From Coffea arabica (lineage: Eukaryota > Streptophyta > Magnoliopsida > Gentianales > Rubiaceae), in the NCBI RefSeq assembly GCF_036785885.1, contig NC_092316.1, forward strand, positions 48,555,001-48,619,000: a DNA stretch of 64,000 nt, in the 5' to 3' direction. The notes under the pieces are model-generated. The model was given only the letters and a program-made list of their open reading frames with translations. It had not been told where the DNA came from and ran no database searches. This document shows, piece by piece, positions 1-55,883 of the stretch. The stretch's first letter is position 1, and every line of letters starts with the position of its first letter. The position numbers and the translations under genes are program-made.

Positions 1-42
1 GAAGATAAGGACACGGCATCAAGCAGTCAAAGCATAAAATAA
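1..42 (+). pseudogene. 3' end of pararetroviral transactivator gene (cut by window edge)
   Basis: The first 13 codons and a TAA stop match the last codons of the transactivator copies that end at 9,211 (+) and 2,960 (-), with two substitutions just before the stop. Only the C-terminal tail is inside the window, so nothing can be said about the state of the rest. It shows that the viral cluster continues to the left of base 1. Confidence 0.8.
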
Positions 43-565
43 GACGTAAGCACTTACGTCACACTCCCGGAATCCAAAGTATATTATTCAAGTTCGCGGA
101 ATTGAAGAAAGAAGGAGTCCGTGGAAAAATCAATTCACATCCGACATTGAAGTCCGCCAAACATTTATAAATATGCAGACGCCATATGAAGGGAGGGGGA
201 ACTTGGAGTTGAAATTAGTGTTAGTAAGAAAGAATTGAGAAAAGCACTAGAGTTCTACTACCGATGGTCTTAAAATTTTCTCTCATGTATAAGAAATAAA
301 GGGAGAGAGAGAGTAGTGTGCTAGGCTATCATCTTGTACCTAACTTCTTCATTAATAAGAGAAACAAGTTTCTTCACATCTTTCCGTATTTACATCTGAG
401 TACGCTTAGAGGTAGGAAACGAAACTAAGCTATGCTGTAAAACTCTGAAGCGGCCCTTAAAGGAAGTCACCCCAGTGGTTGGAGGCTGCAACGCCCAAGT
501 AAGAAGTTCTCGGGGAGGTAGCCGCAGTTTTTGCGATTGAAAATCAGATCTAAGGTATGGAAGCG
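43..565 (+). promoter_or_regulatory. Pararetroviral promoter and leader, copy P1
   Basis: This follows the transactivator stop directly, where Caulimoviridae carry the pregenomic RNA promoter. Bases 43-60 form an inverted repeat of GACGTAAG around CA. It contains two ACGT cores and resembles the as-1/TGACG elements of such promoters. A TATA box (TTTATAAATA) lies at about 164-173, and an AATAAA signal at 295-300 sits about 125 nt downstream, as expected for the terminally redundant viral RNA. Four more copies occur at 2,428-2,959 (-), 4,648-5,065 (+, truncated), 9,212-9,740 (+) and 10,282-10,810 (-). Promoter activity is inferred. Confidence 0.7.
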
Positions 566-570
566 TGTTG

Positions 571-756
571 GTACCCAAATTTGCGGAAACATAATTTAAG
601 ATTGGGTTGGCTAACACAATATTTATATTTACTGTTCTTGATTCAAAAGATATTTTTATTTCTAAATTGTATTCAGGATGCATAATATTTATTGATAAAG
701 TAATAAAAAGATTAGACATATTTTCCATAAAATTTTCCATAAATGTCGATTTGAAA
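571..756 (-). other. Inverted fragment of viral leader with short filler
   Basis: Bases 571 to about 741 are the reverse complement of the leader region just before the primer site of the copy at about 5,128-5,297. About 742-756 is a second short inverted piece, complementary to sequence around 831-846 and 6,000-6,016. The sequence then resumes in + orientation in the third small viral ORF. Open frames crossing this patch are chimeras and not genes. Confidence 0.65.
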
Positions 757-873
757 CAATCCTTTGAAGAAATAATATTAGAAGCATTAAACATATTATT
801 AGATATTGAAAAAAGAAATTTAGAGAAAGTTGTTTCAAATCGACATTTACATTTAGTAAGAACCCATACATGA
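757..873 (+). pseudogene. 3' part of third small viral ORF (copy 1)
   Basis: This matches the 3' half of the small ORF at 5,813-5,989 but stays open past the point where that copy stops. It ends with a TGA overlapping the next ATG as ATGA (870-873), a typical spacing for polycistronic pararetroviral RNA. The 5' half is missing because of the inversion junction at about 756. The product is unidentified. Confidence 0.55.
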
Positions 874-1100
874 ATTCTGATAACTACAAACTAATAGAAC
901 CTACAAATTTAAAAATAGAAAAAGACCTATTTGAAATACAAAAAACAATAATATATGTGTAGAGATCTAAAGAAAGAAATTCAAATAATTAAAGAAAAAA
1001 TAGGAAAAACTGAAAAAATAAATTCAAAAGAAAAAACTACCGAAACAAGAAATAAAACCACCATTGAATATTTAACAGAACATATTGCTAAAATAAAATA
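870..1100 (+). pseudogene. Fourth small viral ORF, broken copy
   Basis: This is a second copy of the 71-codon ORF at 6,036-6,251. A missing dinucleotide in the AT repeat near 955 shifts the frame and gives an early TAG. Further single-base differences follow. The intact copy encodes a charged, Lys/Glu/Ile-rich, probably coiled-coil protein. After 1,080 the sequence runs on toward the coat-protein ORF, so this copy keeps the junction that the copy at 5,066-9,740 has lost. Confidence 0.55.
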
Positions 1101-1142
1101 GGTGAGTCTGAAAAAAATTTTACTTGCCTTTCAGATTCCGAG

Positions 1143-2419
1143 ATGGAAAATATAAGTAATAAACTCGATAATTTAATGATAAATATAAAATTAGATACAA
1201 AACTAGAGATGAATCCAAACATAAGCGATCTACCTTCAACCAGTAGACCCGCATCTTCATATGCTAGACGAAAGCCTGGTTCAGGAAATTCTTTCGTTTC
1301 ATCACTAATGAATATAGCAAAGCAAAAAGGCTATTTAGATAATGAAGGCTATACCATTTTAGATAGAAACACACCTGAAGCTATATTTCCTTTTGGTACT
1401 TTTTTAGATTTAGACTGTGTAAAAAATACTGAAGAAGCAATAGATAAATGGGAAATTGGATTAATATTAGCTGTTTCTATAAACAAATTAACATATGAAG
1501 AGGCAAAAGAATTTTTAGAGAGATCACTGGTAAATAGTGTTTCTCGATATTGGAAGACATTACCAGAAGAAACTAAGTCAATAATATTTGGAGAAGAAGA
1601 AGACATAAATGGTATGGTAACTAGAGCACTTGAATTAATTCGTCTTGAATTTGTTGGTGAAGGAAGTTATTTTAAAGATACTAATTCAGTTCAAAAATAT
1701 ACCGATGCACTATTTAGATTAACACTCTGTGATATATGTGAAATAGATAAATATATCTGTGTTTTTCAAGATTATTATTATAGAACAGATTCAAGAAAAA
1801 GAGAAACATATTTAGAAATGTTTTTCTCAAAAATTCCTGATCCATGGGGTAAAAAATTAAGAGAAGAATATAGTCCTGGAACAAAAGATACATTAGGAAA
1901 AAGAATATTCCATACATTAGATAAACTAAGTAAATGGTGTGAAGAATCTACACTCTTTAGAAAGACCCGTAATTTGAAATATCAATTAAAATTATGTTGT
2001 AATAATCTTAACATGCCTACCCAATAGGATGTGATACTCCTTATTATTATCATAAAATGAAAAATAAATATAAAAAGCGAAAATATTTTAAAAGAAAATA
2101 TATGAAGAAAAGAAAGGCAAAATACTACAAAAGTAGAGAGAAATTTCTGAAAAAAAAAGATATATAGGAGAAATAAATGAAAAAGAAATATAACAGATTG
2201 CCAATGTTATTTTGTAAAGAAAAAGGACACTTAGCAAATCAATGTCCTAAGAAATTTAATAAAAAGAGATTTGAAGTGGATGAGAATATTGTAGACTTGA
2301 TTGATAATAATGAATTAATAGAAATAAAAAGATTTGTAGAAATAGAGGAAATTTCTTCCGACGAAAGTATATTTATCTGTACAGATACAGAATACGAAAT
2401 AAGCGGTGAAGATGAGTAA
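1143..2419 (+). pseudogene. Caulimoviridae coat protein (capsid/nucleocapsid), frameshifted
   Basis: An open frame of 294 codons (1,143-2,027) is followed by a Lys-rich stretch, a CCHC zinc-knuckle region and an acidic C-terminus ending at 2,419. That is the layout of Caulimoviridae capsid proteins. The N-terminal third is Ser/Pro/Arg-rich; the middle is an alpha-helical, Trp-containing capsid core. Compared with the copy at 13,011-13,464, one G is missing near 2,023 and one T is missing in the zinc-knuckle coding stretch near 2,210, so the first Cys pair falls out of frame. The gene cannot give a complete protein. The 3' end runs straight into an inverted viral leader instead of the movement-protein gene. 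It is the only copy that keeps the N-terminal and central capsid regions. Confidence 0.75.
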
Positions 2420-2427
2420 AATAGAAA

Positions 2428-2959
2428 TGGGTCCAACACGCTTCCATACCTTAGATCTGATTTTTGACCGCAAAAACTTCGGCTACCTCCCCGAGGACTT
2501 CTTACTTGGGCGTTGCAACCTCCAACCACTGGGGTGACTTCCTTTAAGGGCCGCTTCAGAGTTTTACAGCACAGTTTAGTTTCGTTTCTTACCTCTAAGC
2601 GTACTCAGATGTAAATATGAAAAGATGTGAAGAAACTTGTTTCTCTTATTAATGAAAAAAGTTAGGTACAAGATGATAGCCTAGCACACTACTCTCTCTC
2701 TCTCCCTTTATTTCTTATACATGAGAGAAAATTTTAAGACCATCACGAACTCTAGTGCTTTTCTCAATTCTTTCTTCCTAACACTAATTTCAACTCCAAG
2801 TTCCCCCTCCCTTCATATGGCGTCTGCATATTTATAAATGTTTGGCGGACTTCAATGTCGGATGTGAATTGATTTTTCCACGGACTCTTTCTTTCTTCAA
2901 TTCCGCGAACTTGAATAATATACTTTGGATTCTGGGAGTGTGATGTAAGTGCTTACGTC
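2428..2959 (-). promoter_or_regulatory. Pararetroviral promoter and leader, copy P2 (inverted)
   Basis: This is the reverse complement of P1, with the TATA box at about 2,828-2,839. The ACGT palindrome at 2,942-2,959 has one arm mutated (GATGTAAG). It reads leftward into the coat-protein copy at 1,143-2,419, antisense to it. Together with P1 it forms an inverted pair of about 520 bp arms enclosing the coat-protein fragment. Confidence 0.65.
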
Positions 2960-4093
2960 TTATTCCATGCTCTGACTGCTTGATGCCGTGTCCTTATCTT
3001 CTTTTTTAGTACATGCTGGACACGTGTTATTTTTATGCTTCCTCATCCTGCACAAAGTCTTGATAGCTTTATTGCTGGATTTTATTCTGCTGCTTTCCAA
3101 TAAGCGTATTTTCCAATTTAAATAATTTATAGCTACTTCTGGAGTCTTTCCAACATATGTAGTCATTATAGAAGAAAATGCTCTATTTCCTCCGTATGTA
3201 CGAAATCCTTGTTTGGGTGTATTTTCTAGATTTTGCAAAACAATTCTCAACCCAGGTGCTCTTCGATAATGTATTTTTTCTTCTGAAAAATATTCATATT
3301 CCTTCCGCAGAGGATATACTTTTATCTCCAAGTCATCATATTTCGTGACTTTAATATGAGAAAAAGCATCATATTTATTTGAGTCTTCAAAATCTGGTCC
3401 AGCTGCAATAATTTTGAGCATTAATATATCCTTAGGACCATAAGTAGAATTATTTTGATAGATGTGCCTAACTCCATCTTGAATCCATCGTGGGAGCTTG
3501 GAAATTTCAGCAAAGGTTGGAGTAGTCATGTATATGGCATTGATTACTCCAAAATTGTACCACTTTTGAATAAAATTACAATCACATCCCTGTACACAAT
3601 TTATCCGAGGATAGATCCCCGTGAAATCCATATAATATGTATCGGTATTTTGCAAGGCATATAATTCTCTCATAAGAGAATTGTATTCAGTGACAAGCGG
3701 ATGCTCATGAATTATATTATTTAATATGGATATCCTCTGAGATGTCTGTTTCCGGCTAAAATCCGGTCTCAAGAATATTCCATCATTGAGAGTATTTAAT
3801 CCAAAACTCTCGATCTGTTGACAATCTTCTTGTCCCGGTGAAGGGGGAAGATTTTCTGTCTTATCTTTCTTGAACAGATCATATAATATTTCTTCAACCT
3901 TGTCGTAAAGGCTGAATGTATTCTAGCCTTTTTCGACATGCTTGATAAGAAGTTCAGAAACATCTTTATTTAGATCTTGATAATTCACAATATCCATTAC
4001 GTCATTGAATGACGTGTGCAATTGAGAAATTTTTTCAGATAACTTTGAGACCTTATCCAAAAGGATAGTTTGCTTATTCATTTGGCTTTCCAT
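2960..4093 (-). pseudogene. Pararetroviral translational transactivator (TAV/inclusion-body protein), copy 2
   Basis: The gene reads leftward from an ATG at 4,091-4,093, which overlaps the 3' end of the RNase H frame. The N-terminal part is a Leu/Ser/Lys coiled-coil-like region. The central part carries the aromatic and Trp-rich block typical of the minimal TAV domain, with a preserved Trp at the site where copies 3 and 4 have TGA. The C-terminus is basic with two Cys pairs and ends at 2,960. One in-frame TAG at about 3,923-3,925 replaces a Gln codon seen in the other copies, and is the only break noticed. By family knowledge TAV permits reinitiation on polycistronic viral RNA and forms cytoplasmic inclusion bodies. 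The family call rests on position (after RT, before the promoter) plus the domain look. Confidence 0.65.
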
Positions 4094-4640
4094 CTCTAGT
4101 GAGAAAATCTGCAAGGCAATTCTCATCAGACTTTATTAGTTCAATTTCAATCATAAATTCAGATAATGCCATTTGCCATCTAATTAATCTTTTATTTTGG
4201 GGCAAAGGTTTAATATTATTTTTAATAAATGCTCTCACTTGAGAATTATCAGTTCTTAACTTAAATTTCTTGGGTAACAAAAAGTAATAAAATTTATGAC
4301 AACCTCTTATTACTGCAAGTAATTCTTTCTCATTTATATGATATCTTTTTTCCGTATCTGAAAACATTCCAGATGCATATCCACATAATAACTTATTTTT
4401 TGTTTTTAAAACTGCACTCCAAACTTCTTCAGAAGCATCAATTTCTAATATAAGATTATCTTCATTTGATGGTAAAGTTAAAAAAAGTAAATTTTTACAT
4501 TGCTCTTTTATTCTCTTTACTAAAGCAATATGATTTTCAGAAAATTCATATTTATTATTTTTCTTCAATAATTTTTGCAATTCTTTTCTTTTATCTGCTA
4601 AGTTACAAATAAAATCAGATGCATAATTTAGGATTATTAA
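4074..4640 (-). pseudogene. Viral RNase H domain, truncated pol fragment (copy 2)
   Basis: This is the last ~185 codons of the viral polymerase frame, reading leftward. RNase H motifs are visible: the DASEEVWSAVL block, the NEKELLAVIRG block with its Glu, and an RTDNSQV block with its Asp. The frame ends a few codons further on than in copies 3 and 4, overlapping the TAV start in another frame, which is probably the ancestral arrangement. Upstream the RT domain is gone: at about 4,640 the sequence jumps to a promoter in the opposite orientation. Confidence 0.75.
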
Positions 4641-4647: not shown

Positions 4648-5065
4648 GGAATATTTATAAATATGCAGACGTCATATGAAGGGAGGGGGAACTTGCAGTT
4701 GAAATTAGTGTTAGTAAGAAAGAATTGAGAAAAGCACTAGAGTTCTACTACCGATGGTCTTAAAATTTTCTCTTATGTATAAGAAATAAAGGGAGAGAGA
4801 GAGTAGTGTGCTAGGCTATCATCTTGTACCTAACTTTCTTCATTAATAAGAGAAACAAGTTTCTTCACATCTTTCCATATTTACATCTGAATATGCTTAG
4901 AGGTAGGAAACAAAACTAAACTGTGCTGTAAAACTCTGAAGTGGCCCTTAAAGGAAGTCACCCCAGTGGTTGGAGGCTGCAACGCCCAAGTAAGAAGTCC
5001 TCGGGGAGGTAGCCGAAGTTTTTGCGGTCAAAAATTAGTTCTAAGGTGTGGAAGCGTGTTGGACC
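4648..5065 (+). promoter_or_regulatory. Truncated viral promoter/leader, copy P3
   Basis: It begins exactly at the TATA box (TTTATAAATA, about 4,653-4,662) and lacks the upstream ACGT palindrome present in P1, P2, P4 and P5. Downstream it keeps the AATAAA signal, the GA-rich stretch and the leader. It leads into the longest collinear viral stretch (5,066-9,740). Loss of the upstream elements should weaken it. Confidence 0.6.
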
Positions 5066-5299
5066 CATTTCTTTTATTAATAAGAAATTGTTAAGTTTTG
5101 ATATAGCTTGCACTCTATTCTCTTATCAAAAAATTTTATGGAAAATATGTCTAATCTTTTTACTACTTTATCAATAAATATTATGCATCGTGAATACAAT
5201 TTAGAAATAAAAATATCTTTTGAATCAAAAACAGTAAAAATAAATATTATGTTAGTCAACCCAAGGTTAAATTATGTTTCCGCAAATTTGGGCACCGAA

Positions 5300-5548
5300 A
5301 TGGTATCAGAGCCCAATGATCTCATAAATATTCCCCTAATCCCCAATGATTTCATGAATAATCTCACTATTGTCATAAATGATCCACTAATCCCCATAAA
5401 TAATCCAACAATGACCATAAACTATAGACAAAATAATGACGATGATTATATTTCAGACGAAGACTTTGAGACAAATCCAGTACCCATTAGATACTTTAAT
5501 AATGAAGTAGAATATGACGATTCTGATTGGCACTATCCATCTCCTTAA
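5300..5548 (+). CDS. Small viral ORF A (82 codons), unknown function
   Basis: The ATG at 5,300-5,302 overlaps the primer site, and the frame runs 82 codons to a TAA. The product has a run of Asn/Pro/Ile repeats of a short NDP-like unit followed by an acidic Asp/Glu/Tyr-rich tail; no family is recognised. The ORF overlaps the next one (start 5,514) in another frame. The frame is open further upstream through the leader, so the start is uncertain. Short ORFs after the primer site are common in Caulimoviridae. Confidence 0.4.
   Translation: MVSEPNDLINIPLIPNDFMNNLTIVINDPLIPINNPTMTINYRQNNDDDYISDEDFETNPVPIRYFNNEVEYDDSDWHYPSP
5301..5313 (+). promoter_or_regulatory. tRNA-Met primer binding site of the pararetrovirus
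   Basis: TGGTATCAGAGCC is the sequence complementary to the 3' end of plant initiator tRNA-Met, the minus-strand primer of Caulimoviridae and base 1 of their genomes by convention. It lies about 235 nt after the end of the repeated leader and just before the small ORFs, as expected. It is the only copy of the site in the cluster. Confidence 0.85.
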
Positions 5549-5816
5549 AATAGAAGAATGTCAAATATGTGACTCTATGTTATTCCTTATTAAAGAATAC
5601 GCATATCAGTTGCAACAATTAGATAAAAGAATTTCATATTATCAAGAAGAATGGCTTCATGTCACTTTATACAATTGTAACCCAGTTACTTGTCATGATA
5701 TATACAAGATTTTGAGAGATGCAGAACATGAAAAATATTTAATAACCAATAGATATGCAAAAATCAATAAAGAATTTACTATACATTATAGAGAAAATCA
5801 TTTAAATTCACCATGA
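5514..5816 (+). CDS. Small viral ORF B (100 aa), unknown function
   Basis: The ATG at 5,514 lies inside the end of ORF A, and the TGA at 5,814-5,816 overlaps the next ATG as ATGA. The predicted protein is helical, with several Tyr and His and one CQIC-like Cys pair near the N-terminus. No homolog is recognised. The tightly overlapping chain of ORFs A to D suggests polycistronic translation of the kind TAV supports. Confidence 0.5.
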   Translation: MTILIGTIHLLKIEECQICDSMLFLIKEYAYQLQQLDKRISYYQEEWLHVTLYNCNPVTCHDIYKILRDAEHEKYLITNRYAKINKEFTIHYRENHLNSP

Positions 5817-5989
5817 ATAACTCAGAAAGAATAACTTATTGTCTAGAATGTCAAAAATTTATTAGCCAAGATCTAGCAGCTAAAGCTAAAATAAATAAGA
5901 TAAGAAAACTTATTGTAAAATATTCCCTTGAAGAAATAATATTAGAAGCATTAAACATATTATTAGATATTGAAAAAATAAATTTATAG
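5813..5989 (+). CDS. Small viral ORF C (58 codons), probably prematurely stopped
   Basis: It starts in the ATGA overlap at 5,813. The N-terminal part has a C-x2-C pair followed by a Lys-rich helix. It stops at TAG 5,987-5,989. The second copy, at 757-873, reads through this position and reaches an ATGA overlap with ORF D, so this copy has most likely gained a frameshift a few bases earlier. Function unknown. Confidence 0.45.
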   Translation: MNNSERITYCLECQKFISQDLAAKAKINKIRKLIVKYSLEEIILEALNILLDIEKINL

Positions 5990-6035
5990 AGAAAGTTGTT
6001 TCAAATCGACATTTACATTTAGTAAGAACACATAC

Positions 6036-6251
6036 ATGAATTCTGATAACTATAAACTAATAGAACCTACAAATTTAAAAATAGAAAAAGACCTATTTGA
6101 AATACAAAAAACAATAATATATATGTGTAGAGATCTAAAGAAAGAAATTCAAATAATTAAAGAAAAAATAGAAAAAATAGGAAAAACTGAAAAAATAAAT
6201 TCAAAAGAAAAACTACCGAAACAAGAAATAAAACCACCATTGAATATTTAA
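6036..6251 (+). CDS. Small viral ORF D (71 aa), coiled-coil-like
   Basis: Starts at ATG 6,036 and stops in TTTAACAG at 6,249-6,251. The product is short, very rich in Lys, Glu and Ile and without Cys, with heptad-like spacing of Ile/Leu in residues ~10-50. By size and composition it could be a virion-associated-protein analogue, but that is a guess. A second, frameshifted copy lies at 870-1,100. Eight bases after the stop this copy jumps by deletion to protease sequence, so the coat-protein and movement-protein genes are missing here. Confidence 0.5.
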   Translation: MNSDNYKLIEPTNLKIEKDLFEIQKTIIYMCRDLKKEIQIIKEKIEKIGKTEKINSKEKLPKQEIKPPLNI

Positions 6252-6261
6252 CAGAACATGT

Positions 6262-8082
6262 TTATGCAAACCAACATGTTTTCCACAGCAATATCATGAA
6301 ACATTACCTGATCGAATTGGAATAGATATTTCTAATAACTCTATTATTTTAAATTCTGGAATACCTAAATCTCAAATATTACTTGGTTTATTCCTTGTAA
6401 AATGTCCCCCATTTTACTTCTATAATACAGGATTAGATATACTCTTAGGAAATAATTTTCTTCAATTATTTCATAGAGTTTTATTTGATACTTTACAATC
6501 TCAAATACATTTTAAAACTCCTTGTGGACATTGGATAGTAGTTAACCGACTTAAAAATGCTTATGCCCGTAAAATTCCTATTACTTTTCATACTCGCACA
6601 GGTCAGCGTGGTGATATTGGATATTCAGAAAAACCAAAAATACCAAAAGGAAATTCCATGCTAAAATATGAAAAATAATTACATTTAAAACAACTACAAT
6701 TAAAAACTATATCTACTACTTTAGAAGATATAAAAGGAAAATTACGATTAAGTTATACAGAAAATTCTCTTAAATTCTAGGATAAAAACCAAGATTATGC
6801 TGAAATAAAACTTAAAGATAAAAATAAAATAATTAGAGTTAAACCCATGAGATATAATCCTGATGAATTCAAAAGGCAAATTAAAGAATTATTAGAAATT
6901 CCTTTAATAAGAGAGAGTAATTCTCCCCATTCTTCACCTGCATTTATGGTAAGAAACCATGCTGAGATAATAAGAAATAAACCTAGAATGGTTGTTAATT
7001 ATAAACAATTAAATAGTGAAACCATATTTGATGGATACTTTTTATCATATAAAGAAACCCTTATAAATATGAGTAAAAGCAAGAAAATATATTCTAAGTT
7101 TGATTGTAAAAGTGATTTTTGGCAAATAAAAATGCACCTTGATAGTATTAAATACACAGCATTTTGTACTCCTCAAGGACAATATGAATGATTAGTTATG
7201 CCATTTGGATTAAAAAATGCCCCTCAAATATATCAAAGAAAAATGGATAAAATCTTTAAAGATTATCCTTTCTTATATGTATATGTTGATGACATATTAA
7301 TAGCTTCAAATTCAATAGAAGAACATTTAGAATATTTAAATATATTCTCTAATTTATGTTTAAAACATGGAATTGGGTTATCAGAAAAGAAAGCAAAAAT
7401 AGGACTAAAAGAAATTGAATTTTTAGGATTAGAAATAAATGGTGAAGGAATAAAAATGCAACCGCATATTTTAGAAAAAATACAAGCATTTCCTGATAAA
7501 TTAGAAGATAAAAAACAATTGCAAAGATTTTTAGGAACATTAAATTATGCATCTGATTTTATTTGTAACTTAGCAGATAAAAGAAAAGAATTGCAAAAAT
7601 TATTGAAGAAAAATAATAAATATGAATTTTCTGAAAATCATATTGCTTTAGTAAAGAGAATAAAAGAACAATGTAAAAATTTACCTTTTTTAACTTTACC
7701 ATCAGATGAAGATAATGTTATATTAGAAACTGATGCTTTTGAAGAAGTTTGGAGTGCAGTTTTAAAAACAGAAAATAATTTATTATGTAGATATGCATCT
7801 GGAATGTTTTCAGATACGGAAAAAAGATATCATATAAATGAGAAAGAATTACTTGCAGTAATAAGAGGTTGTCATAAATTTTATTACTTTTTGTTACCCA
7901 AGAAATTTAAGTTAAGAACTGATAATATTCAAGTGAGAGCATTTATTAAAAATAATATTAAACCTTTGCCCCAAAATAAAAGATTAATTAGATGGCAAAT
8001 GGCATTATCTGAATTTATGATTGAAATTGAACTAATAAAGTCCGATGAGAATTGCCTTGCAGATTTTTTCACTATGGATTGA
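6262..8082 (+). pseudogene. Viral protease remnant + reverse transcriptase + RNase H (copy 3)
   Basis: A single frame runs from about 6,262 to 8,082 with stops at 6,676, 6,778 and 7,189. The first ~140 codons include an ILLGNNFL block, the C-terminal signature of retropepsin-like proteases; the catalytic DTG part is deleted at the junction near 6,259. RT follows: a FDCKSDFWQIKM block with the first catalytic Asp (just before the 7,189 stop), MPFGLKNAP at 7,198 and the YVDDI box about 30 codons later. RNase H has a DAFEEVWSAVL block, NEKELLAVIRG and RTDNIQV. The frame ends early relative to copy 2. The polymerase converts pregenomic RNA to DNA in the Caulimoviridae cycle. From 7,007 onward the sequence is the left arm of the large palindrome. 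Confidence 0.85.
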
Positions 8083-9211
8083 AAGCCAAATGAATAAGCA
8101 AACTATCCTTTTGGATAAGGTCTCAGAGTTATCTGAAAAAATTTCTCAATTGCACACGTCATTCAATGACGTAATGGATATTGTGAATTATCAAGATCTA
8201 AATAAAGATGTTTCTGAACTTCTTATCAAACATGCCGAAAAAGGCCAGAATACATTCAGCCTTTACGACAAGGTTGAAGAAATATTATATGATCTGTTCA
8301 AGAAAGATGAGACAGAAAATCTTCCCCTTTCACCGGGACAAGAAGATTGTCAACAGACCGAGAGTTCTGGATTAAATACTCTCAATGATGAAATATCCTT
8401 GAGACCGGATTTTAGTCGGAAACAGACATCTCAGAGGATACCCATATTAAATAATATAATTAATGAGCATCCGCTCGTCACTGAATACAATTCTCTTATG
8501 AGAGAATTATATGCCTTGCAAAATACCGATACATATTATATGGATTTCACGGGGATCTATCCTCGGATAAATTATGTACAGAGATGTGATTGCAATTTTA
8601 TTCAAAAGTGATACAATTTTGGAGTAATCAATGCCATATACATGACTACTCCAACCTTTGCTGAAATTTCCAAACTCCCACGATGGATTCAAGATGGAGT
8701 TAGGCACATCTATCAAAATAATCCTACTTATGGTCCCAAGAATATATTAATGCTCAAAATTATTGCAGATGGACCAGATTTTGAAGACTCAAATAGATAT
8801 GATGCTTTTTCTCATATTAAAGTCATGAAATATGATGACTTGGAGATAAAAGTATATCCTCAGTGGAAGGAGTATGAATATTTTTCGGAAGAAAAAATAC
8901 ATTATCGAAGAGCACTTGGGTTGAGAATTGTTTTGCAAAATCTAGAAAATACACTCAAGCAAGGATTTCGTACATACGGAGGAAATGGAGCATTTTCTTC
9001 TATAACGACTACATATGCTGGAAAGACTCCAGAAGCAGCTATAAATTATTTAAATTGGAAAATACGCTTATTGGAAAGCAGCAGAATAAAATCCAGCAAT
9101 AAAGCTATCAAGACTTTGTGCAAGATGAGGAAGCATAAAAATAACACGTGTCTAGCATGTACTAAAAAAAAAGATAAGGACACGGCATCAAGCAGTCAGA
9201 GCATGGAATAA
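8078..9211 (+). pseudogene. Pararetroviral transactivator (TAV), copy 3
   Basis: Homologous to copy 2. The position of copy 2's ATG is ATT here (8,078-8,080); the next in-frame ATG is at 8,090. A TGA at 8,609-8,611 replaces the Trp codon kept in copy 2, splitting the gene into a coiled-coil N-terminal part and the conserved TAV core plus basic C-terminus (8,642-9,211). The last residues contain two C-x2-C-like pairs and a Lys/Asp/Ser-rich tail. The whole gene lies in the left arm of the palindrome and is mirrored at 10,811-11,944. Confidence 0.7.
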
Positions 9212-9740
9212 GACGTAAGCACTTACGTCACACTCCCGAAATCCTAAGTATATTATTCAAGTCCGCGCAATTGAAGAAAGAAGGAGTCCGTGGAAAAATC
9301 AATTCACATCCGACATTGAAGTCTGCCAAACATTTATAAATATGCAGATGCCATATGAAGGGAGGGGGAACTTGGAGTTGAAATTAGTGTTAGTAAGAAA
9401 GAATTGAGAAAAGCACTAGAGTTCTACTACCGATGGTTTTAAAATTTTCTATGTATAAGAAATAAAGGGAGAGAGAGAGTAGTGTGCTAGGTTATCATCT
9501 TGTACCTAACTTTCTTCATTGATAAGAGAAACAAGTTTCTTCACATCTTTCCATATTTACATCTAAGTACGCTTAGAGGTAGGAAACGAAACTAAACTGT
9601 GCTGTAAAACTCTGAAGCGGCCCTTAAAGGAAGTCACCCCAGTGGTTGGAGACTGCAACGCCCAAGTAATAAGTTCTCGGGGAGGTAGCCGGAGTTTTTG
9701 CGGTCGAAAATCAGATCTAAGGTATGGAAGCGTGTTGGAC
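9212..9740 (+). promoter_or_regulatory. Pararetroviral promoter and leader, copy P4 (left arm)
   Basis: The ACGT inverted repeat is intact at 9,212-9,229, the TATA box is at about 9,333-9,342 and an AATAAA signal follows at about 9,460. It reads rightward into the palindrome centre at 10,011 and on into its own mirror image, so a read-through transcript would be self-complementary. Confidence 0.7.
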
Positions 9741-9751
9741 CCATTTCTATT

Positions 9752-10010
9752 TTACTCATCTTCACCGCTTATTTCGTATTCTGTATTTGTACAGATAAAT
9801 ATACTTTCATCGGAAGAAATTTCCTCTATTTCTACAAATCTTTTTATTTCTATTAATTCATTATTATCAATCAAGTTTACAATATCCTCATCCACTTCAA
9901 ATCTCTTTTTATTAAATTTCTTAGGATATTGATTTGCTAAGTGTCCTTTTTCTTTACAAAAATAACATTGGCAATCTGTTATATTTCTTTTTCTTTTATT
10001 TCTGACTGCC
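9752..10010 (-). pseudogene. Coat-protein C-terminal fragment, left arm
   Basis: On the minus strand this encodes the CCHC region and the acidic C-terminal tail of the capsid protein, ending at 9,752. The last Cys of the knuckle is Tyr (LANQYPKK; the copies at 2,239 and 13,280 have Cys). The open frame that runs across the centre to 10,081 is a fold-back artefact of the palindrome, with only this part being capsid sequence. Confidence 0.65.
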
Positions 10011-10011
10011 A

Positions 10012-10270
10012 ATGTTATTTTTGTAAAAGAAAAAGAAATATAACAGATTGCCAATGTTATTTTTGTAAAGAAAAAGGACACTTAGCAAATCAATATCCTA
10101 AGAAATTTAATAAAAAGAGATTTGAAGTGGATGAGGATATTGTAAACTTGATTGATAATAATGAATTAATAGAAATAAAAAGATTTGTAGAAATAGAGGA
10201 AATTTCTTCCGATGAAAGTATATTTATCTGTACAAATACAGAATACGAAATAAGCGGTGAAGATGAGTAA
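10012..10270 (+). pseudogene. Coat-protein C-terminal fragment, right arm
   Basis: Mirror of 9,752-10,010, reading rightward: knuckle with Cys-to-Tyr change, then the acidic tail, stop at 10,268-10,270. Immediately afterwards the sequence becomes inverted leader, through the same breakpoint seen at 2,419-2,445. Confidence 0.65.
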
Positions 10271-10281
10271 AATAGAAATGG

Positions 10282-10810
10282 GTCCAACACGCTTCCATAC
10301 CTTAGATCTGATTTTCGACCGCAAAAACTCCGGCTACCTCCCCGAGAACTTATTACTTGGGCGTTGCAGTCTCCAACCACTGGGGTGACTTCCTTTAAGG
10401 GCCGCTTCAGAGTTTTACAGCACAGTTTAGTTTCGTTTCCTACCTCTAAGCGTACTTAGATGTAAATATGGAAAGATGTGAAGAAACTTGTTTCTCTTAT
10501 CAATGAAGAAAGTTAGGTACAAGATGATAACCTAGCACACTACTCTCTCTCTCCCTTTATTTCTTATACATAGAAAATTTTAAAACCATCGGTAGTAGAA
10601 CTCTAGTGCTTTTCTCAATTCTTTCTTACTAACACTAATTTCAACTCCAAGTTCCCCCTCCCTTCATATGGCATCTGCATATTTATAAATGTTTGGCAGA
10701 CTTCAATGTCGGATGTGAATTGATTTTTCCACGGACTCCTTCTTTCTTCAATTGCGCGGACTTGAATAATATACTTAGGATTTCGGGAGTGTGACGTAAG
10801 TGCTTACGTC
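10282..10810 (-). promoter_or_regulatory. Pararetroviral promoter and leader, copy P5 (right arm)
   Basis: Exact mirror of P4: ACGT repeat at 10,793-10,810 and TATA box at about 10,680-10,689. It reads leftward, toward P4 and through the palindrome centre. Confidence 0.7.
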
Positions 10811-11944
10811 TTATTCCATGCTCTGACTGCTTGATGCCGTGTCCTTATCTTTTTTTTTAGTACATGCTAGACACGTGTTATTTTTATGCTTCCTCATCTT
10901 GCACAAAGTCTTGATAGCTTTATTGCTGGATTTTATTCTGCTGCTTTCCAATAAGCGTATTTTCCAATTTAAATAATTTATAGCTGCTTCTGGAGTCTTT
11001 CCAGCATATGTAGTCGTTATAGAAGAAAATGCTCCATTTCCTCCGTATGTACGAAATCCTTGCTTGAGTGTATTTTCTAGATTTTGCAAAACAATTCTCA
11101 ACCCAAGTGCTCTTCGATAATGTATTTTTTCTTCCGAAAAATATTCATACTCCTTCCACTGAGGATATACTTTTATCTCCAAGTCATCATATTTCATGAC
11201 TTTAATATGAGAAAAAGCATCATATCTATTTGAGTCTTCAAAATCTGGTCCATCTGCAATAATTTTGAGCATTAATATATTCTTGGGACCATAAGTAGGA
11301 TTATTTTGATAGATGTGCCTAACTCCATCTTGAATCCATCGTGGGAGTTTGGAAATTTCAGCAAAGGTTGGAGTAGTCATGTATATGGCATTGATTACTC
11401 CAAAATTGTATCACTTTTGAATAAAATTGCAATCACATCTCTGTACATAATTTATCCGAGGATAGATCCCCGTGAAATCCATATAATATGTATCGGTATT
11501 TTGCAAGGCATATAATTCTCTCATAAGAGAATTGTATTCAGTGACGAGCGGATGCTCATTAATTATATTATTTAATATGGGTATCCTCTGAGATGTCTGT
11601 TTCCGACTAAAATCCGGTCTCAAGGATATTTCATCATTGAGAGTATTTAATCCAGAACTCTCGGTCTGTTGACAATCTTCTTGTCCCGGTGAAAGGGGAA
11701 GATTTTCTGTCTCATCTTTCTTGAACAGATCATATAATATTTCTTCAACCTTGTCGTAAAGGCTGAATGTATTCTGGCCTTTTTCGGCATGTTTGATAAG
11801 AAGTTCAGAAACATCTTTATTTAGATCTTGATAATTCACAATATCCATTACGTCATTGAATGACGTGTGCAATTGAGAAATTTTTTCAGATAACTCTGAG
11901 ACCTTATCCAAAAGGATAGTTTGCTTATTCATTTGGCTTTCAAT
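10811..11944 (-). pseudogene. Pararetroviral transactivator (TAV), copy 4
   Basis: Mirror of copy 3 with the same defects: lost ATG and the Trp-to-TGA stop (at 11,411-11,413). Its two open parts (10,811-11,380 and 11,411-11,977) translate identically to those of copy 3. Because the same mutations are on both arms, they predate the duplication or were homogenised afterwards. Confidence 0.7.
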
Positions 11945-13015
11945 CCATAGTGAAAAAATCTGCAAGGCAATTCTCATCGGACTTTATTAGTTCAATTTCA
12001 ATCATAAATTCAGATAATGCCATTTGCCATCTAATTAATCTTTTATTTTGGGGCAAAGGTTTAATATTATTTTTAATAAATGCTCTCACTTGAATATTAT
12101 CAGTTCTTAACTTAAATTTCTTGGGTAACAAAAAGTAATAAAATTTATGACAACCTCTTATTACTGCAAGTAATTCTTTCTCATTTATATGATATCTTTT
12201 TTCCGTATCTGAAAACATTCCAGATGCATATCTACATAATAAATTATTTTCTGTTTTTAAAACTGCACTCCAAACTTCTTCAAAAGCATCAGTTTCTAAT
12301 ATAACATTATCTTCATCTGATGGTAAAGTTAAAAAAGGTAAATTTTTACATTGTTCTTTTATTCTCTTTACTAAAGCAATATGATTTTCAGAAAATTCAT
12401 ATTTATTATTTTTCTTCAATAATTTTTGCAATTCTTTTCTTTTATCTGCTAAGTTACAAATAAAATCAGATGCATAATTTAATGTTCCTAAAAATCTTTG
12501 CAATTGTTTTTTATCTTCTAATTTATCAGGAAATGCTTGTATTTTTTCTAAAATATGCGGTTGCATTTTTATTCCTTCACCATTTATTTCTAATCCTAAA
12601 AATTCAATTTCTTTTAGTCCTATTTTTGCTTTCTTTTCTGATAACCCAATTCCATGTTTTAAACATAAATTAGAGAATATATTTAAATATTCTAAATGTT
12701 CTTCTATTGAATTTGAAGCTATTAATATGTCATCAACATATACATATAAGAAAGGATAATCTTTAAAGATTTTATCCATTTTTCTTTGATATATTTGAGG
12801 GGCATTTTTTAATCCAAATGGCATAACTAATCATTCATATTGTCCTTGAGGAGTACAAAATGCTGTGTATTTAATACTATCAAGGTGCATTTTTATTTGC
12901 CAAAAATCACTTTTACAATCAAACTTAGAATATATTTTCTTGCTTTTACTCATATTTATAAGGGTTTCTTTATATGATAAAAAGTATCCATCAAATATGG
13001 TTTCACTATTTAATT
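11940..13015 (-). pseudogene. Viral RT/RNase H, copy 4 (5'-truncated)
   Basis: Mirror of the RT and RNase H of copy 3, including the MPFGLKNAP block, YVDDI box and RNase H motifs, and the same stop (now at 12,831-12,833). The arm ends at 13,015 inside the N-terminal RT region, where + strand coat-protein sequence begins. Confidence 0.8.
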
Positions 13016-13464
13016 TGAAATATCAATTAAAATTATGTTGTAATAATCTTAACATGCCTACCCAGATAGGATGTGATACTTCTTATTATTATCATGAAAT
13101 GAAAAATAAATATAAAAAGCGAAAATATTTTAAAAGAAAATATATGAAGAAAAAAAAGGCAAAATACTACAAAAGTAGAGAAAAATTTCCAAAAAAGAAA
13201 AAGATGTATAGAAGAAATAAAAGAAAAAGAAATATAACAGATTGCCAATGTTATTTTTGTAAAGAAAAAGGACACTTAGCGAATCAATGTCCTAAGAAAT
13301 TTAATAAAAAGAGATTTGAAGTGGATGAGGATATTGTAGACTTGATTGATAATAATGAATTAATAGAAATAAAAAGATTTACAGAAATAGAGGAAATTTC
13401 TTCCGATGAAAGTATATTTATCTGTACAGATACAGAATACGAAATAAGCAGTGAAGATGAGTGA
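13011..13464 (+). pseudogene. Coat-protein C-terminal part with intact CCHC knuckle
   Basis: It starts abruptly at the right end of the palindrome with the segment that corresponds to about 1,968 of copy 1. It then has a long Lys/Tyr-rich basic stretch, the complete CCHC knuckle (CQCYFC...GHLANQC) and the Asp/Glu-rich tail, with stop TGA at 13,462-13,464. This is the best-preserved capsid C-terminus in the window. The next gene starts in ATGAGTGA, overlapping the stop. The capsid N-terminus is missing. Confidence 0.75.
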
Positions 13465-14651
13465 AATAAAAGAAGAGAAAAATAATACTTCTGAAATAAT
13501 AGATATTCATTCAGAAAAATTAGGAGAATATAGTCAAGAAGCACTCATAGATAGAAAAATATTAACAAAAATTCAAAAAAGTAATTTTTCAATAAATTCT
13601 TATAGTGGATTTAATGTACCTGCATTAGAAAAAATAAAATTTTATCTATGAAAACACCATATGTACTATGGAATAAATCTCAAGGAGAAAGCATTAGAAT
13701 TCAGCCTTACTACCAACAAAATAATGATCCCATTAATATCTAAAAAAGATATTTACAGCAAATTAGAAAAAATACCAGAAAAAATAAGAGAATCAATAGG
13801 ATGGATTCATATAGGTTCTATCCAAATGATTATTAGATCTACATTTAGAGAAGAATTGAATACACCTATAGACCTTGCTATAGTTGATAATAGAATAAAA
13901 AAATAGAGAAGAAGCAACTCTCGGAATCCTTAGAGGAAACCTTAAATATCAAAAACTAATTTTTAATATATATCCAAAAATCTCTTATAACATACAAGAT
14001 AAAGATTTTGATAAGACACTTTCCTTAATACAAGATTTCAAAAGAAAAGATTTCTTTTTTAATGGAAATAGACCATATTCCATTACATATATGATTTCTT
14101 ATGCTTTATCAAATACACATCATACTGAACATTTTTCAAAAACTGAATTTATTGATCTCCCTAAATTATTTTCCGAAGTAGGAAAAATATATCCTCCAGA
14201 AATTACTAATATAGAATTAAATGAGGAATTCAATTTAGATATAAGTCAAAAACCTCTATTAGACAAGCCAAATGCCTTGTTATCAAGATTATCTTATGCA
14301 GGAAAAATGGTTAGAAGTAATTCTTACCGTTTACCGAATATGAATACTAATCAAAAAATAACAACAAATTATAGAATAGAAACTAGATATTGCAATGGAA
14401 AAAATATGACAAATTGTAATATTTTAATAGATACAGGAGTTAATGGAAATTATATATCACATAGACTAATTGAACACTTACCCATTTTTCAATTAGAAAA
14501 CCCTTATCAATACACAAATTTTAATGGAGAAACTCATGAAATAACGGAGACTATAGAAACAGAAATTGAATTAACTGGTAATCGAATTCCTATTCGACTC
14601 CTAGTTGAAAATGAAGGATTTAATAATACTCTTGAAATAATGTTAGGATAA
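13457..14651 (+). pseudogene. 30K-type movement protein followed by aspartic protease N-terminal part
   Basis: The ATG at 13,457 overlaps the capsid stop. The first ~150 codons carry the core of the 30K movement-protein superfamily: a WIHIGSIQMII-type strand, a TFREEL segment and an IVDNRI block with the conserved Asp. A TGA at 13,649-13,651 stands where Trp is likely, and a one-base shift occurs near 13,905. Sequence then continues in another frame; in 14,091-14,651 a DTG box lies at codons 114-116 (ILIDTGVNGNY), the catalytic motif of retropepsins. A TAA ends it at 14,649-14,651; related-looking sequence goes on for perhaps 50-100 bases. Movement proteins enlarge plasmodesmata; the protease would process the polyprotein. 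Capsid before movement protein before protease/RT is the gene order of the cavemovirus/solendovirus group. Confidence 0.7.
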
Positions 14652-15132
14652 TCTTATGAAAGATTATATCCAGTAGGAAATAATTTTACATATAGCTGCT
14701 TTCCCCTAAATGTTCTTATATCCTAAGGATAATCTTTTGAAATCTTATGAAAAGTAATAGGATATACCTACTCTCTGTATCATCAGTGGGAGTGTCGTGA
14801 AATGCTCTTGGGATGGGCCTTGAAGAGTTGAAGGTCTGCTTTGATGTCAATTTGGGGAATCACATGTCTTTTTTTATTTTGAATCAGGGAATCACATGTC
14901 TACTTGTGAAGAATTTCCATGTGCCATGTGCCCAAACAACCCAAGCTTACCCTTATCTATAGGACTAGGAATTAAGATTAGCCCGAACATTAAATTGTGT
15001 AGGGGCTATTTAGAGATTGTTTAGACGCAACAAAAATTCCGTTTCAAGCTTGAGTCAACTCGAATTGACTTCAATTCAATGGTTCTTATTTGTGTAGGAT
15101 TACATCAATTTGAAGTTTACTAAAACTCGAAT

Positions 15133-18345: not shown

Positions 18346-18363
18346 AATTGCACCCCCGTATAA
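18346..18363 (+). repeat. Target-site duplication, 5' copy of the LINE
   Basis: AATTGCACCCCCGTATAA, identical to 24,573-24,590. The perfect match shows the insertion is not very old, in contrast with the many coding defects. Confidence 0.9.
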
Positions 18364-18914
18364 ATAAAAACCATTATTGGAGTGGTGTCTCTCATTTTGA
18401 GAGTGTTTTCTCTCGTTTTTAGAGAGAGAAATCTCCCTCTCGTGGGAGTCGTGTTCTCCTAACAACTTTTTCAAATTTTTCCTTCTGCGAGTCCCAAAAT
18501 AACAGAAAGCTACGTGAAACTTTCCCATTTTTTTTAGTTCTATTCATCAGATTAATGGAGTCCTGCATAACCATTGCAGCGATTCATCCCCTCTTTAGCT
18601 TTCAAACTAAGAACATCCACCTACGCTAACATAGCAATAGCTTATCGAGCTGATAGTCTTATGAGTTCACTCTACTGGTTCAAAGGAAATAGAAGTTGAC
18701 GTCTTATTTTTTCTCTTTCTCTGGTTTGTGTTTTTTACTCTCCTTTGTTTTAGTGTTCTTCAGGTCTTCCGCTCTTTCTAGCAGATTTTTGGATCATACT
18801 GCCTGGCTGTGGGGACGACGGACGGGAAGTGGAGGAACGGTGGTGTTTCCTTGAGTTGGACTGAGCTGCAGGGTTCTGAAAATCAAAGCAGTACAGGCGG
18901 TGGGATCTGTGGTC

Positions 18915-20315
18915 ATGGAGCGAATAGAGGAGGTTTTGAGGAAATTCTCCTTGTCGGAGAATGAAAGGGAAGGAGTTTGCCTGGGGACTGAGGATCTGGC
19001 AAATTGAATAAAGGAATGTAGGTTGAGTTTAATTGGTAAAGTTTGGGGGGATAAACAAGTCAACTTCAATGGCATGAGGAGTTTTGCAAATAACATGTGG
19101 CCTCAGGTAAGAAATTTAAAAGTAACAGAGATTAGAGCCAATATGTTTCAGTTTGTGTTTGAGTCTAGGAAGGATATTGATTTTGTGTTAAGTAAAAAAC
19201 CATGGATATACGATGGGCAGCCTCTAGTGCTGTTGGAATGGCAGACAGATCTGGAGGAGGCTTGTAGTAGGACTCTAGTATGGGTGCAGTTTTGGAATAT
19301 TCATCTTCACTGGGCAGCGAAGGAGGCAGGGAGGAAAATAGGAGGAATTTTTTAGGGGGTTAGGGAGGTCATTATTCCACAGGAGGGAGGGAAGGATGGT
19401 AAGCATCTGAAGATACTGGCTGAAATCGATCTGAGGAAGCCCTTACCTAGAGGGGTTATGGTTTGAAGTAATGGAGGGACAAGATGGATTGAGTTCAAGT
19501 ATGAGAAGTGCCCTGACTTCTGCTTCTGTTGTGGACTAATAGGCCATTCTGAACGAAATTGCAGTAGGAAGGGGATGCATATGGATAAGGAGAATCAGTA
19601 TGGCAACTGGCTAAGGACTAGTTTTCCAAGGAGTCCTCGGAGGAAGTTTAGGAGTGGGAGGGATGAAGAGCAGCCAGAAAAAGAGGTAGATAGGGAGCCC
19701 AGTCTGGATAAAGAAGGTTGCAGTCCACATTACCCTATGTTAACATACACCAAGGAATTCCATAGCTCAACTGGAAAAGCAGGTTCCTCAGGTGCAGGGG
19801 GTGAGGGGTTGTGTGTGGTTGATGAGGAAGGAACAGTTGGTAAGGTGGCAGAGCAGTTAGGGATGTCAGGGATGGGACAGCAGATGATAGGGAGGGAGGA
19901 GAGTCAGGGGGTGTGTTGTATACAGGAGGATGTCAAGGAAGTTACAGAGAAAGGCAGGGATGGAGGGTGTCAGGAAGGAACAATACCTGAGGGAGGGAAG
20001 GGTGAGAAAGGTGACAGTGGGCAGGATTCTATGTGGGTGGATGGGGAGAATGTGGGTGGGATAGGAGAGGGTAGAGTGGGAAAGGTAGGAGGAGGAAGGG
20101 GGAAGAAAGTAGACCACAATGCTAAAGCTGTTAATGCCAGTATAGGGAATTATAGAGTTAGTAAATCATGGAAAATAATAGTGAGGGAAGTCAGTAGAAG
20201 GAAGCCCCTGCAAGAGCTGGATGTGGGAAAAAGGAAACAGGATGAGAATGGAGGGAGTCAGGTAGAAGAACAGAGGGGGGTGCAAGCAGGAAAAAGGCTA
20301 AGCTGTGGGAAATGA
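18915..20315 (+). pseudogene. LINE ORF1 (nucleic-acid-binding, DUF4283-like plus zinc knuckle)
   Basis: The frame stays in phase from ATG 18,915 to TGA 20,313-20,315 (466 codons) but carries three stops (near 19,005, 19,353 and 19,465), each at a site where Trp fits the family. The N-terminal half has the DUF4283 look (SLIGKVWGDK, FVFESRKDIDFVLSKKPW). A C-x2-C-x4-H-x4-C knuckle (CFCCGLIGHSERNC) follows around 19,525-19,565. The C-terminal third is low-complexity, rich in Gly, Glu and Lys. ORF1 proteins coat LINE RNA. Confidence 0.8.
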
Positions 20316-20379
20316 CTGATGACAGGATGATGATTGTTGAGGTGGTGGAGCCCTCCCTTAATGGGGCTCCCAGTTTCCA

Positions 20380-23300: not shown

Positions 23301-24522
23301 TGGGATCAAGAGTTGCTGGGGGCAGGAATTTGAGGAAACTGACAGAATTCATATAGCAAGGATACCTTTAAGCCTGGGGAAGGAGCAAGATAGGGTATAT
23401 TGGGCAAAAACTAATTCTGGTGCTTATACTGTCCAGTCTGGTTACAAACAAGCAAAAGAGATGAAGAAAGGGAATGGCTACTGCAAAGAAGTGCTAGAAT
23501 CAAGTAGTCATGGGAGACATAAGTCTCAGTGCTGGAACTTACTTTGGAAGATGAACATGAAGAACAAGCTCAAACACTTCATTTGGAAGTGTCTACAGGG
23601 AATCGTACCGACAAATGCTGTGATAAGGGGGAAATGTGATAAAGGTGATCCTATTTGTAGGTGCTGTGGTGAGCAAGCTGAGACACTAGAACATATGTTT
23701 TTTACATGTAGCTTAGCTAAAGCAATATGGAAAGTTGCTCCACTGAGTTGGGATGGATTGGAGGTTTTTACCAACAGCTTCTGGCATTGGTGGGAAGAAC
23801 TTAGAGGGGCTATGGGTAGGGAGAGTGGAAGAGACCACATTGTTCTCACTGTGCATATTTTGTGGCAAATCTGGAAGGCTAGGAATGACAAGCTTTTCAA
23901 CAATATTAGTAGAGATCCAATGGCGGTTGTTAACAAGGCAGTAATGGAGTAGAATGAGTACCAATTGGCTCAGGAAGAAAGGACTGGGGAGGTGGGACAG
24001 ACACTTGGAAAGGATGAGGTAAAGAGGGGGTGGGAGAGGCCACAAGGCAACTAGATCAAAATCAATACTGATGCAGCTCTACACAAGCAGGCCTGCAAAG
24101 CTGGATGGGGCATTGTGGCAAGGGATAGGAATGGGATGCTGGTAGGAGCCTGGGCATGTCCAGCTACAAATTGTGCAGAAGCACAAGTTGAGGAAGCTTT
24201 GGCGATTAGGGAGGCAATGGTGGTAGCTAAACGTAAAGGGTGGAGGATGGTGGAATTTGAATCAAATTGTAAGATGGTAGTCGACAAAATCAATGCACAG
24301 GAGGAGGAGATTAGCATAGCTACTATACTGGTAGACATATGGCGGTTAAAAACTGAATTTTATAAATATTGTTTTTCCTTCACTAGGAGGTCTAACAACT
24401 CTGTTAGTCACCACATAGCAAAGTATGCTATAGGCTTGGTAGATGTAGCTGAATGGAAGTGTGACTTCCCAGCATGGCTGCTAGAGCTAGCTCAAGCAGA
24501 TTTGGAGGAGCGAAGGCTCTAA
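20380..24522 (+). pseudogene. LINE ORF2: endonuclease, reverse transcriptase, RNase H
   Basis: The ATG at 20,380 starts an endonuclease beginning MRALV-stop-NCRGAG and containing IGDLND and SDHCAL blocks. RT begins near 21,720 (NKSPGPDG), with PISLCNV, a KLDMSKTYDRVEW block holding the first catalytic Asp, GLRQGDPLSPYLF and FADDS near 22,437. A Cys/His zinc-binding region (CRCCGEQAETLEHMFFTC) follows near 23,660, then a plant-type RNase H from 24,056 (INTDAA, EALAIREA). Stops at 20,395, 21,772, 22,198, 23,950 and 24,052 all sit at likely Trp codons. An extra T near 22,562 and changes near 22,670, 22,980 and 23,300 shift the frame. Confidence 0.85.
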
Positions 24523-24572
24523 CCTTGTATTAGTTTTAGTGATTAATATGATGTTGCCCTGTTGGAAAAAAA

Positions 24573-55881: not shown

Positions 55882-55883
55882 AT

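Follow-up and report, generated by a model that had tools for sequence, protein, structure and literature searches.

In tomato, the transcriptionally competent siRNA areas (TSAs) are rearranged inverted-repeat endogenous pararetroviruses (Valli et al. 2023, as given in the available text of PMC10377300). The same text describes the eBSV of banana (Musa balbisiana), in which viral fragments are duplicated in the same and in opposite directions, and soybean, where caulimovirid- and TE-derived inverted repeats feed DCL2-dependent 22-nt sRNAs (its reference 89); it is also proposed there that plants may draw RNA-based defence from inverted-repeat virus insertions (its section 3.5). In human fold-back inverted duplications, the available text of PMC3907307 gives spacers of at least 766 bp and insertions instead of microhomology at 5 of 21 such junctions. 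Coffea is named within the Petuvirus-03 cluster in the available text of PMC9794742, so that coffee caulimovirids as such are already known; among the literature matches listed, no account was found of the present locus or of any coffee caulimovirid palindrome.

The window analyzed here, 64,000 nt of Coffea arabica, includes a cluster of about 15.2 kb of rearranged endogenous caulimovirid (pararetrovirus) DNA, within which lies a palindrome. The left arm (7007–9998, + strand) and the right arm (10024–13015, –), its exact reverse complement, are 2992 nt apiece. An earlier note on this DNA had claimed residue-identical mirror arms of about 3 kb in which position i pairs with 20,022-i, and this is exact: base i (7007–9998) is complementary to base 20022-i at all 2992 positions (0/2992 mismatches), and the identity is unbroken right up to both arm ends. 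Beyond the arms, the mirror symmetry is gone: when 6000–6999 is divided into ten 100-base bins, nine have 22–34 matches and the remaining one has 41. The arms are separated by a spacer of 25 nt (9999–10023), made up of 5 nt that continue the left arm, the 3 nt GAC, and 17 nt from a templated copy; the central positions 9999–10011 have no pairing base. A chance origin is ruled out, the expected number of such repeats being about 10^-1680.

What do the arms carry? On the + strand of the left arm, the C-terminal part of a reverse transcriptase (RT) with RNase H occupies 7192–8082, its frame interrupted by a stop directly upstream (7189–7191). RT with a tethered RNase H1 was confirmed in 7192–8079 (PF00078, 1.9e-18; PF17917, 1.7e-20; PF17919, 1.7e-17), and the structure model (pLDDT 87.5) had a Vaccinivirus polymerase as its top BFVD match (43% identity, best of 50 listed). 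Searches of viral_contigs with this piece returned 0 relatives, either with the single sequence or with an alignment (A1, 30 hand-picked proteins of the 120 listed, 406 having been found). The movement protein (PF01107, 8.5e-13, 13899–14648), coat protein (PF22909, 3.5e-11, 1095–2024) and aspartic protease (PF02160, 1.9e-4, 6244–6675) were also identified, the last by a marginal match (21.4 bits against a cut-off of 21.3). Two frames follow at the position of the transactivator/viroplasmin (8039–9211, +), namely 8039–8611 and 8612–9211, with an in-frame stop between them in both arms; in the copy at 2960–3922 (–) the same frame is open across this point. These frames are putatively TAV-like by position alone; no profile matched them, and the AlphaFold model has a pLDDT of only 31.

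The viral intergenic region (9212–9743, +) has an as-1-like motif (9212–9230), TATAAATA at 9335 and AATAAA at 9461, which we take to mark it as a putative promoter-like region; its mirror in the right arm lies at 10279–10810 (–), with TATAAATA at 10687. Joined to it at 9743|9744, and inverted relative to it, is the zinc-finger end of the coat protein (9744–9998, –). This inverted junction was spanned in 3 of the 42 genome matches listed (best 40 of 166 candidates scored), all inside the cluster, and a third copy carrying it, U1, lies at 2174–4630 (–; zinc finger on +, remainder on –). Another viral copy runs into the left arm (4650–7006, +), with an intergenic region, a Met-tRNA primer site (5301–5312), the protease and the RT start; its joint near 6262 was spanned in no examined locus. 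The primer-site motif of caulimovirids, TGGTATCAGAGC, has one exact occurrence, at 5301; only this exact site is informative, since 4 sites were found with two or fewer mismatches against 3.26 expected. To the right of the palindrome, a further copy (13011–14651, +) runs from the coat-protein end through the zinc finger and the movement protein to the protease. Scans for tRNAs and Rfam families gave 0 hits.

The cluster is flanked by a duplication of about 150 bp of host DNA (left copy C7:48554403–48554552; right copy 14771–14923, +), which is present as a single uninterrupted copy on the homeologous chromosome (best 40 of 827 candidates scored). The duplication and the empty homeologous site point to one old insertion; the two flanking copies differ at 5/150 sites (CI 1.1–7.6%). 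Host DNA differs between the homeologs at 369/15817 sites (2.33%), as calculated from 6 of 12 BLAST blocks, leaving out one block of 282 nt (10 mismatches), one of 158 nt (74%) and four short blocks of repeats. (TOC1 does not tell the subgenomes apart, since its C7 and C8 exons are at about the same distance from the C. canephora protein.) If the arms were as old as the homeolog split, the probability of zero mismatches between them would be 2e-31. The palindrome thus has at most about 4% of the age of the split, or else was recently homogenized. On the clock used here, it would post-date Arabica polyploidy, for which 350–610 ka is given in the available text of PMC11018527.

The sequence that was duplicated is apparently older. 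The arms differ from U1 at 80/2198 sites (3.64%, over 2428–4630) and from copies at other loci by 3.4–17.9% (alignments of at least 400 sites), the least difference of any other copy being 2.4%. Neighboring viral copies, which the earlier note had put at several percent from the arms, indeed differ from them by 2.4–4.8% substitutions. In the comparison of the arms with U1, CG/CHG sites have an excess of transitions (32/388 versus 35/1084, P 1.6e-4), and both arms have in-frame stops and differences from other copies in common. This excess and the shared decay suggest that the copy had probably gone through decay as methylated host DNA before it was duplicated. Origin from a fresh viral dimer is rejected on account of the old decay common to both arms.

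How did the palindrome arise? The earlier note had offered recent inverted duplication, gene conversion and an assembly fold-back. The first is best supported, by the zero divergence, a parental left flank, a right junction with microhomology that was spanned at no other examined locus, and a templated insert in the spacer. At the left end, the stretch 6900–7110 is continuous in 11/11 matches (from the examined stretches of 10 other loci), and the right-end junction (12900–13130) is spanned by 0/28 matches in the examined loci. The left arm thus continues the normal virus order and the right-end junction is absent from the other loci examined, which suggests that the left arm is the parental copy and the right arm the derived one. 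At the right end, RT (–) is joined to coat protein (+) through the 5-bp microhomology TAATT (13011–13015; P 0.011 for at least 5 bp). The 17 nt of the spacer are part of a 21-nt exact copy (10007–10027 = 10049–10069, zinc-finger + strand) that overlaps both the spacer and the right arm, and the slip within the center has 4 nt of microhomology (TAAA). The palindrome is an inverted copy adjoining its template, with a spacer, as expected of a fold-back.

From these features, it is probable that the 2 × 2992-nt inverted duplication arose by a recent fold-back or template switch in one decayed copy inside the old caulimovirid insertion. In a lineage leading to Arabica, during repair or replication of this copy, left-to-right synthesis would have broken inside the zinc-finger piece and then resumed, after one short slip, with its own strand as the template. 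About 3 kb would then have been copied backwards, to 7007, and a jump via TAATT would have led out into the neighboring coat-protein copy. Some details fit this account less well. The first, fold-back switch at the center has 0–1 nt of microhomology (by eye), that is, no clear inverted microhomology, and the GAC of the spacer is left unexplained. (A 15-nt AT-rich match of 9991–10005 to 29318–29332 (–) could hint at another donor, yet is probably due to chance.) U1 has the inverted junction, yet is as distant from the arms as the nearer unlinked copies (3.4–5%), which is unexpected under a simple duplication history.

Equal identity would also result from gene conversion between the arms, for which long inverted repeats are substrates. 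The palindrome could then be as old as the insertion, its arms having been kept identical by conversion, an explanation that we consider unlikely. Other inverted repeats of the virus bear on it: repeats of at least 200 nt occur at 8 of 17 other examined loci, four of which have near-centered viral palindromes. (These loci were hand-chosen, for better or several close-by matches, from 28 places outside the cluster; the best 40 of 136 candidates were scored in the genome search, and the counts are lower bounds.) Such structures were thus not rare for this virus family in the coffee genome, contrary to the earlier expectation for plants. The C19 and C20 palindromes, apparently homeologous, seem to predate the subgenome split, and such long life would suit conversion; but their arms are only 90.5% and 84.4% identical, and no inverted repeat at the other examined loci exceeds 97.3%, so that conversion does not keep arms of this sort identical at those loci, and 100% is an unusual trait of the present arms rather than the rule. 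The identity of the present arms, moreover, is undiminished at both ends.

Somewhat less likely still is an assembly artefact, in which a fold-back read (from a missing adapter or a chimera) was built into the contig. Fold-back reads do give exact identity and a center with a short spacer. Such a read, on the other hand, mirrors the flank to the end of the read, but the symmetry here stops at 7007/13015. A single assembly fold-back is rejected as a sufficient cause, since it leaves the right-hand junction unexplained: at 13015 the symmetry gives way to a different viral copy, joined through microhomology, and this would take a second, independent error. The presence of this intergenic/zinc-finger inversion in U1 too, outside the palindrome, also argues against an artefact. 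Furthermore, the assembly was likely made with hifiasm from HiFi reads, and the Arabica reference individual in the paper on it is a di-haploid line, which would leave no alleles to confuse; if so, library fragments of about 20 kb would be enough to cover 6 kb. That the palindrome was made in extrachromosomal viral DNA and integrated ready-made is very improbable: much of the cluster may have entered jointly, given the single flanking host duplication, and ends of this virus tend to fall together at its primer site, but the insertion is old (by the differences in its duplication), arms of that age would have diverged, and the decay is identical in both.

Whatever its origin, the palindrome retains a promoter-like region in each arm, the two pointing at each other across the center, and a hairpin RNA is therefore predicted. 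A transcript from near 9365 would fold into a perfect hairpin of about 634 bp, a substrate from which Dicer-like enzymes could make siRNAs directed at the leader and coat-protein end in related viruses and copies. The predicted folding energy is -491.8 kcal/mol, compared with a mean of -107.7 for 20 shuffles, as a result of the palindrome itself. The siRNA effect, as read from the sequence, might be limited by the AATAAA about 100 nt past the predicted start, which might terminate the transcript. More speculatively, the locus could be a newborn antiviral hairpin gene: a post-allopolyploidy fold-back in a dead insertion, leaving two opposed viral promoters and a heritable source of siRNAs against the virus family. 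This is offered as a tentative idea. If the palindrome is transcribed, it would yield double-stranded RNA of the type used in plant virus silencing.

How, then, does the coffee locus compare with the known systems? Like the tomato TSAs, it is a rearranged endogenous caulimovirid in inverted-repeat conformation with a predicted hairpin RNA, but its arms are identical and its spacer is 25 nt, and the hairpin is only predicted. Of the TSA traits of transcription with dense 22-nt siRNAs and of silencing of matching transcripts, transcription may be expected in coffee from the promoter-like motifs. As in soybean, a genomic inverted repeat is the hairpin source, in coffee a predicted one. Unlike eBSV, the coffee arms combine broken frames with a perfect palindrome, and no infectivity is claimed. 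With the human fold-backs, it shares the inverted copy, the spacer, short microhomology and occasional templated insertions; it differs in its 25-nt spacer, its interstitial position, its mere 3 kb per arm and the lack of clear microhomology at the fold-back switch. The locus bears on how long a perfect 3-kb palindrome survives in a plant chromosome, and, being datable against the empty homeologous site, on whether such a hairpin may be born by accident and then function. Inverted-repeat viral loci are already known, and the coffee palindrome is probably an unusually young one among them.

The window corresponds to C7:48555001–48619000. Its palindrome at 7007–13015 has the geometry claimed in the earlier note, down to the exact coordinates: base i pairs with base 20022-i at 2992 of 2992 positions in the left arm (7007–9998, + strand), and the right arm (10024–13015, - strand) follows a spacer of 25 nt (9999–10023). 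Base-pairing symmetry ends at both outer arm ends. The whole looks like a real, recent and perfect inverted duplication inside an old virus insertion. It is improbable that the palindrome is an assembly artefact. A single fold-back read mirrors unique flank to the end of the read, which the palindrome does not do, and an artefact would require two errors, one of them coinciding with a 5-bp microhomology. The published C. arabica assembly, probably the source of this sequence, was made with hifiasm from HiFi reads of 20-kb fragments (1,198 Mb in 132 scaffolds), and the Arabica reference individual is a di-haploid line, according to PMC11018527.

By its gene content, the cluster sequence is endogenous caulimovirid DNA. 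Pfam matches include reverse transcriptase (RT) with RNase H (7192–8079), a movement protein with a protease match below threshold after it (13899–14648), a caulimovirus protease barely over its cut-off (6244–6675) and a coat protein zinc knuckle. A caulimovirus coat domain was matched by profile at 1095–2024, and positions 5301–5312 are an exact match to the Met-tRNA primer site. The RT–RNase H piece found its best match among solved structures in the "enzymatic polyprotein" 8r0s (2.2e-74), and its model was topped by a Vaccinivirus polymerase (43% identity) among the 50 BFVD matches listed. Two frames downstream of RNase H occupy the expected position of the transactivator gene; in profile searches, no transactivator profile matched either.

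How old is the insertion? The cluster extends from about C7:48554553 to window position 14770 (~15.2 kb) and is bordered on either side by a host duplication of ~150 bp (9403–9552 of the fetched stretch L011, and window 14771–14923), the copies of which differ by 5 mismatches in 150 aligned bases plus a 3-bp gap (3.3%, CI 1.1–7.6%). On the homeologous chromosome C8, this host sequence is single-copy, with an 8-nt gap and collinear flanks on either side, and thus represents an empty homeologous site. The cluster is best read as one old insertion, and its long target duplication suggests repair of widely staggered breaks. The host flanks differ between C7 and C8 at 369 of 15,817 sites (2.33%; 1.5–2.9% per block, from the longer 6 of 12 aligned blocks). 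By the 3.3% of its flanking duplication, the insertion would be roughly as old as the homeolog split, dated to 4–6 million years in PMC11018527. A TOC1/PRR1-type gene exon in the window (31.1–32.2 kb) is identical to a Coffea canephora protein at 308 of 313 residues. Window 18351–24592, missing from C8 with flanks that overlap by 4 nt, holds a LINE-like element (a zinc knuckle, a sub-threshold endonuclease match, and RT and RNase H parts seen by eye). At 55850–61355 are GC-rich retroelement remains with gag and integrase domains and an RT slightly below cut-off, presumably of Ty3 type, judging by gene order. About 20–30 kb left of the cluster, the fetched stretch L009 carries a direct repeat of 4,225 nt at 99.93% identity (1–4225 and 5476–9700; C7:48525001–48529225 and 48530476–48534700), which may be a second duplication of very recent date or else two long repeats forming a pair.

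The dating of the palindrome is unusually clean. There are 0 differences between the arms in 2992 positions, giving a 95% upper bound of 0.1%, so that the arms have diverged by no more than 4.3% of what separates the homeologs; on the split date this corresponds to about 0.17–0.26 million years, by a crude clock. On that clock, the bound would fall after the Arabica polyploidy, for which PMC11018527 gives 350–610 ka. The palindrome would thus be either far younger than the insertion or recently homogenised. A third viral copy in the cluster, U1 (2174–4630, - strand), has 80 differences from the arms in the 2198 sites compared over 2428–4630, and 6 more in the 254 sites of its zinc finger. For the other fetched loci, 17 in all, divergence from the arms is 3.4–17.9% where 400 or more sites could be aligned.

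Inverted repeats 200 nt or longer occur at 8 of these 17 loci (65–97.3% identity), and four of the eight, on C19, C20, C1:40560 and C12, are near-centred viral palindromes (84–95%). The C19 and C20 palindromes can be aligned to one another and look homeologous, in which case their common ancestor would be older than the separation of the subgenomes, and palindromes can persist here for millions of years as their arms diverge. Such drift opposes the idea that gene conversion maintains arm identity, and makes the case of 100% identity stand out. Three palindromes are centred beside the primer site (C12:22539721–22540412, C19:41772461–41773721 and C20:46892560–46893833; fetched stretches L030, L021 and L022). 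When the 17 loci are set against the window, 19 right ends of the virus family are truncated within 4650–5890, and 10 of these fall at 5290–5325, adjoining the primer site (expected 0.55; the range was chosen post hoc, and C19/C20 and both C12 halves are non-independent), as does 1 of 14 truncated left ends. This clustering fits a model in which the minus-strand discontinuity is where viral DNA integrates or is joined. At C11:51786001–51806000 (L015, L016), a stretch of ~17.5 kb derived from this virus family includes inverted repeats of 4,765 nt (96.7%) and 2,009 nt (97.3%), a further candidate hairpin locus.

The duplicated copy was probably already dead and methylated when copied. Both arms share a stop in the RT frame (7189–7191) and one in the next frame (8609–8611), a position across which U1 is open. 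Four copies compared, 7 differences in the intergenic region are private to the arms. Of the changes separating arms and U1, 67 are transitions and 13 transversions. With both directions pooled, transitions of the C-to-T type are more frequent at CG/CHG (32/388) than at CHH sites (35/1084; P 1.6e-4), as expected for methylated DNA. At 9743|9744 the intergenic region is joined to the zinc finger in inverted orientation. Among 42 genome matches (best 40 of 166 candidates scored), 3 cross this join, namely the two arms and U1; it arose within the cluster and predates the palindrome. Simple duplication does not account for the distance of U1 from the arms despite this common join, that distance being comparable to that of the nearer unlinked copies.

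The predicted product of the palindrome is a hairpin RNA. The intergenic region retained in each arm contains an as-1-like motif, TATAAATA (9335 + and 10687 -) and AATAAA, the last ~100 nt past the predicted transcript start; the two promoter-like regions point at each other across the palindrome centre. If transcription began near 9365, the RNA would fold into a perfect stem of 634 bp with a 25-nt loop, and the 621-nt hairpin core folds at -491.8 kcal/mol, against a mean of -107.7 for 20 shuffles. In tomato, rearranged inverted-repeat caulimovirid loci are reported to give 22-nt siRNAs able to degrade matching transcripts (PMC10377300, section 3.5).

How did the palindrome form? The left-end stretch (6900–7110) is spanned by 11 of 11 matches in fetched stretches of 10 other loci, so virus order there is normal. 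The right-end stretch (12900–13130) is spanned by 0 of 28 matches among the fetched loci, and of 38 matches to the centre the sole one spanning it is the palindrome itself. Together, these results point to the left arm as the likely parental copy; within the fetched loci, the right junction is unique. It joins RT (-) to coat protein (+) via TAATT, a 5-bp microhomology (chance 0.011). At the centre, the left arm continues for 5 nt, followed by GAC and 17 nt of templated copy, which fall within a 21-nt exact copy of zinc-finger + strand (10007–10027 = 10049–10069) that overlaps the right arm by TAAA; the first switch there is without clear microhomology. A history of three template switches, two of them central and the third at the exit, fits fold-back or template-switch repair. 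The human fold-back duplications described in PMC3907307 likewise include some templated insertions, and 13 of 21 junctions there have 2–8 bp of microhomology, but their spacers are far longer than the 25 nt of the coffee palindrome.
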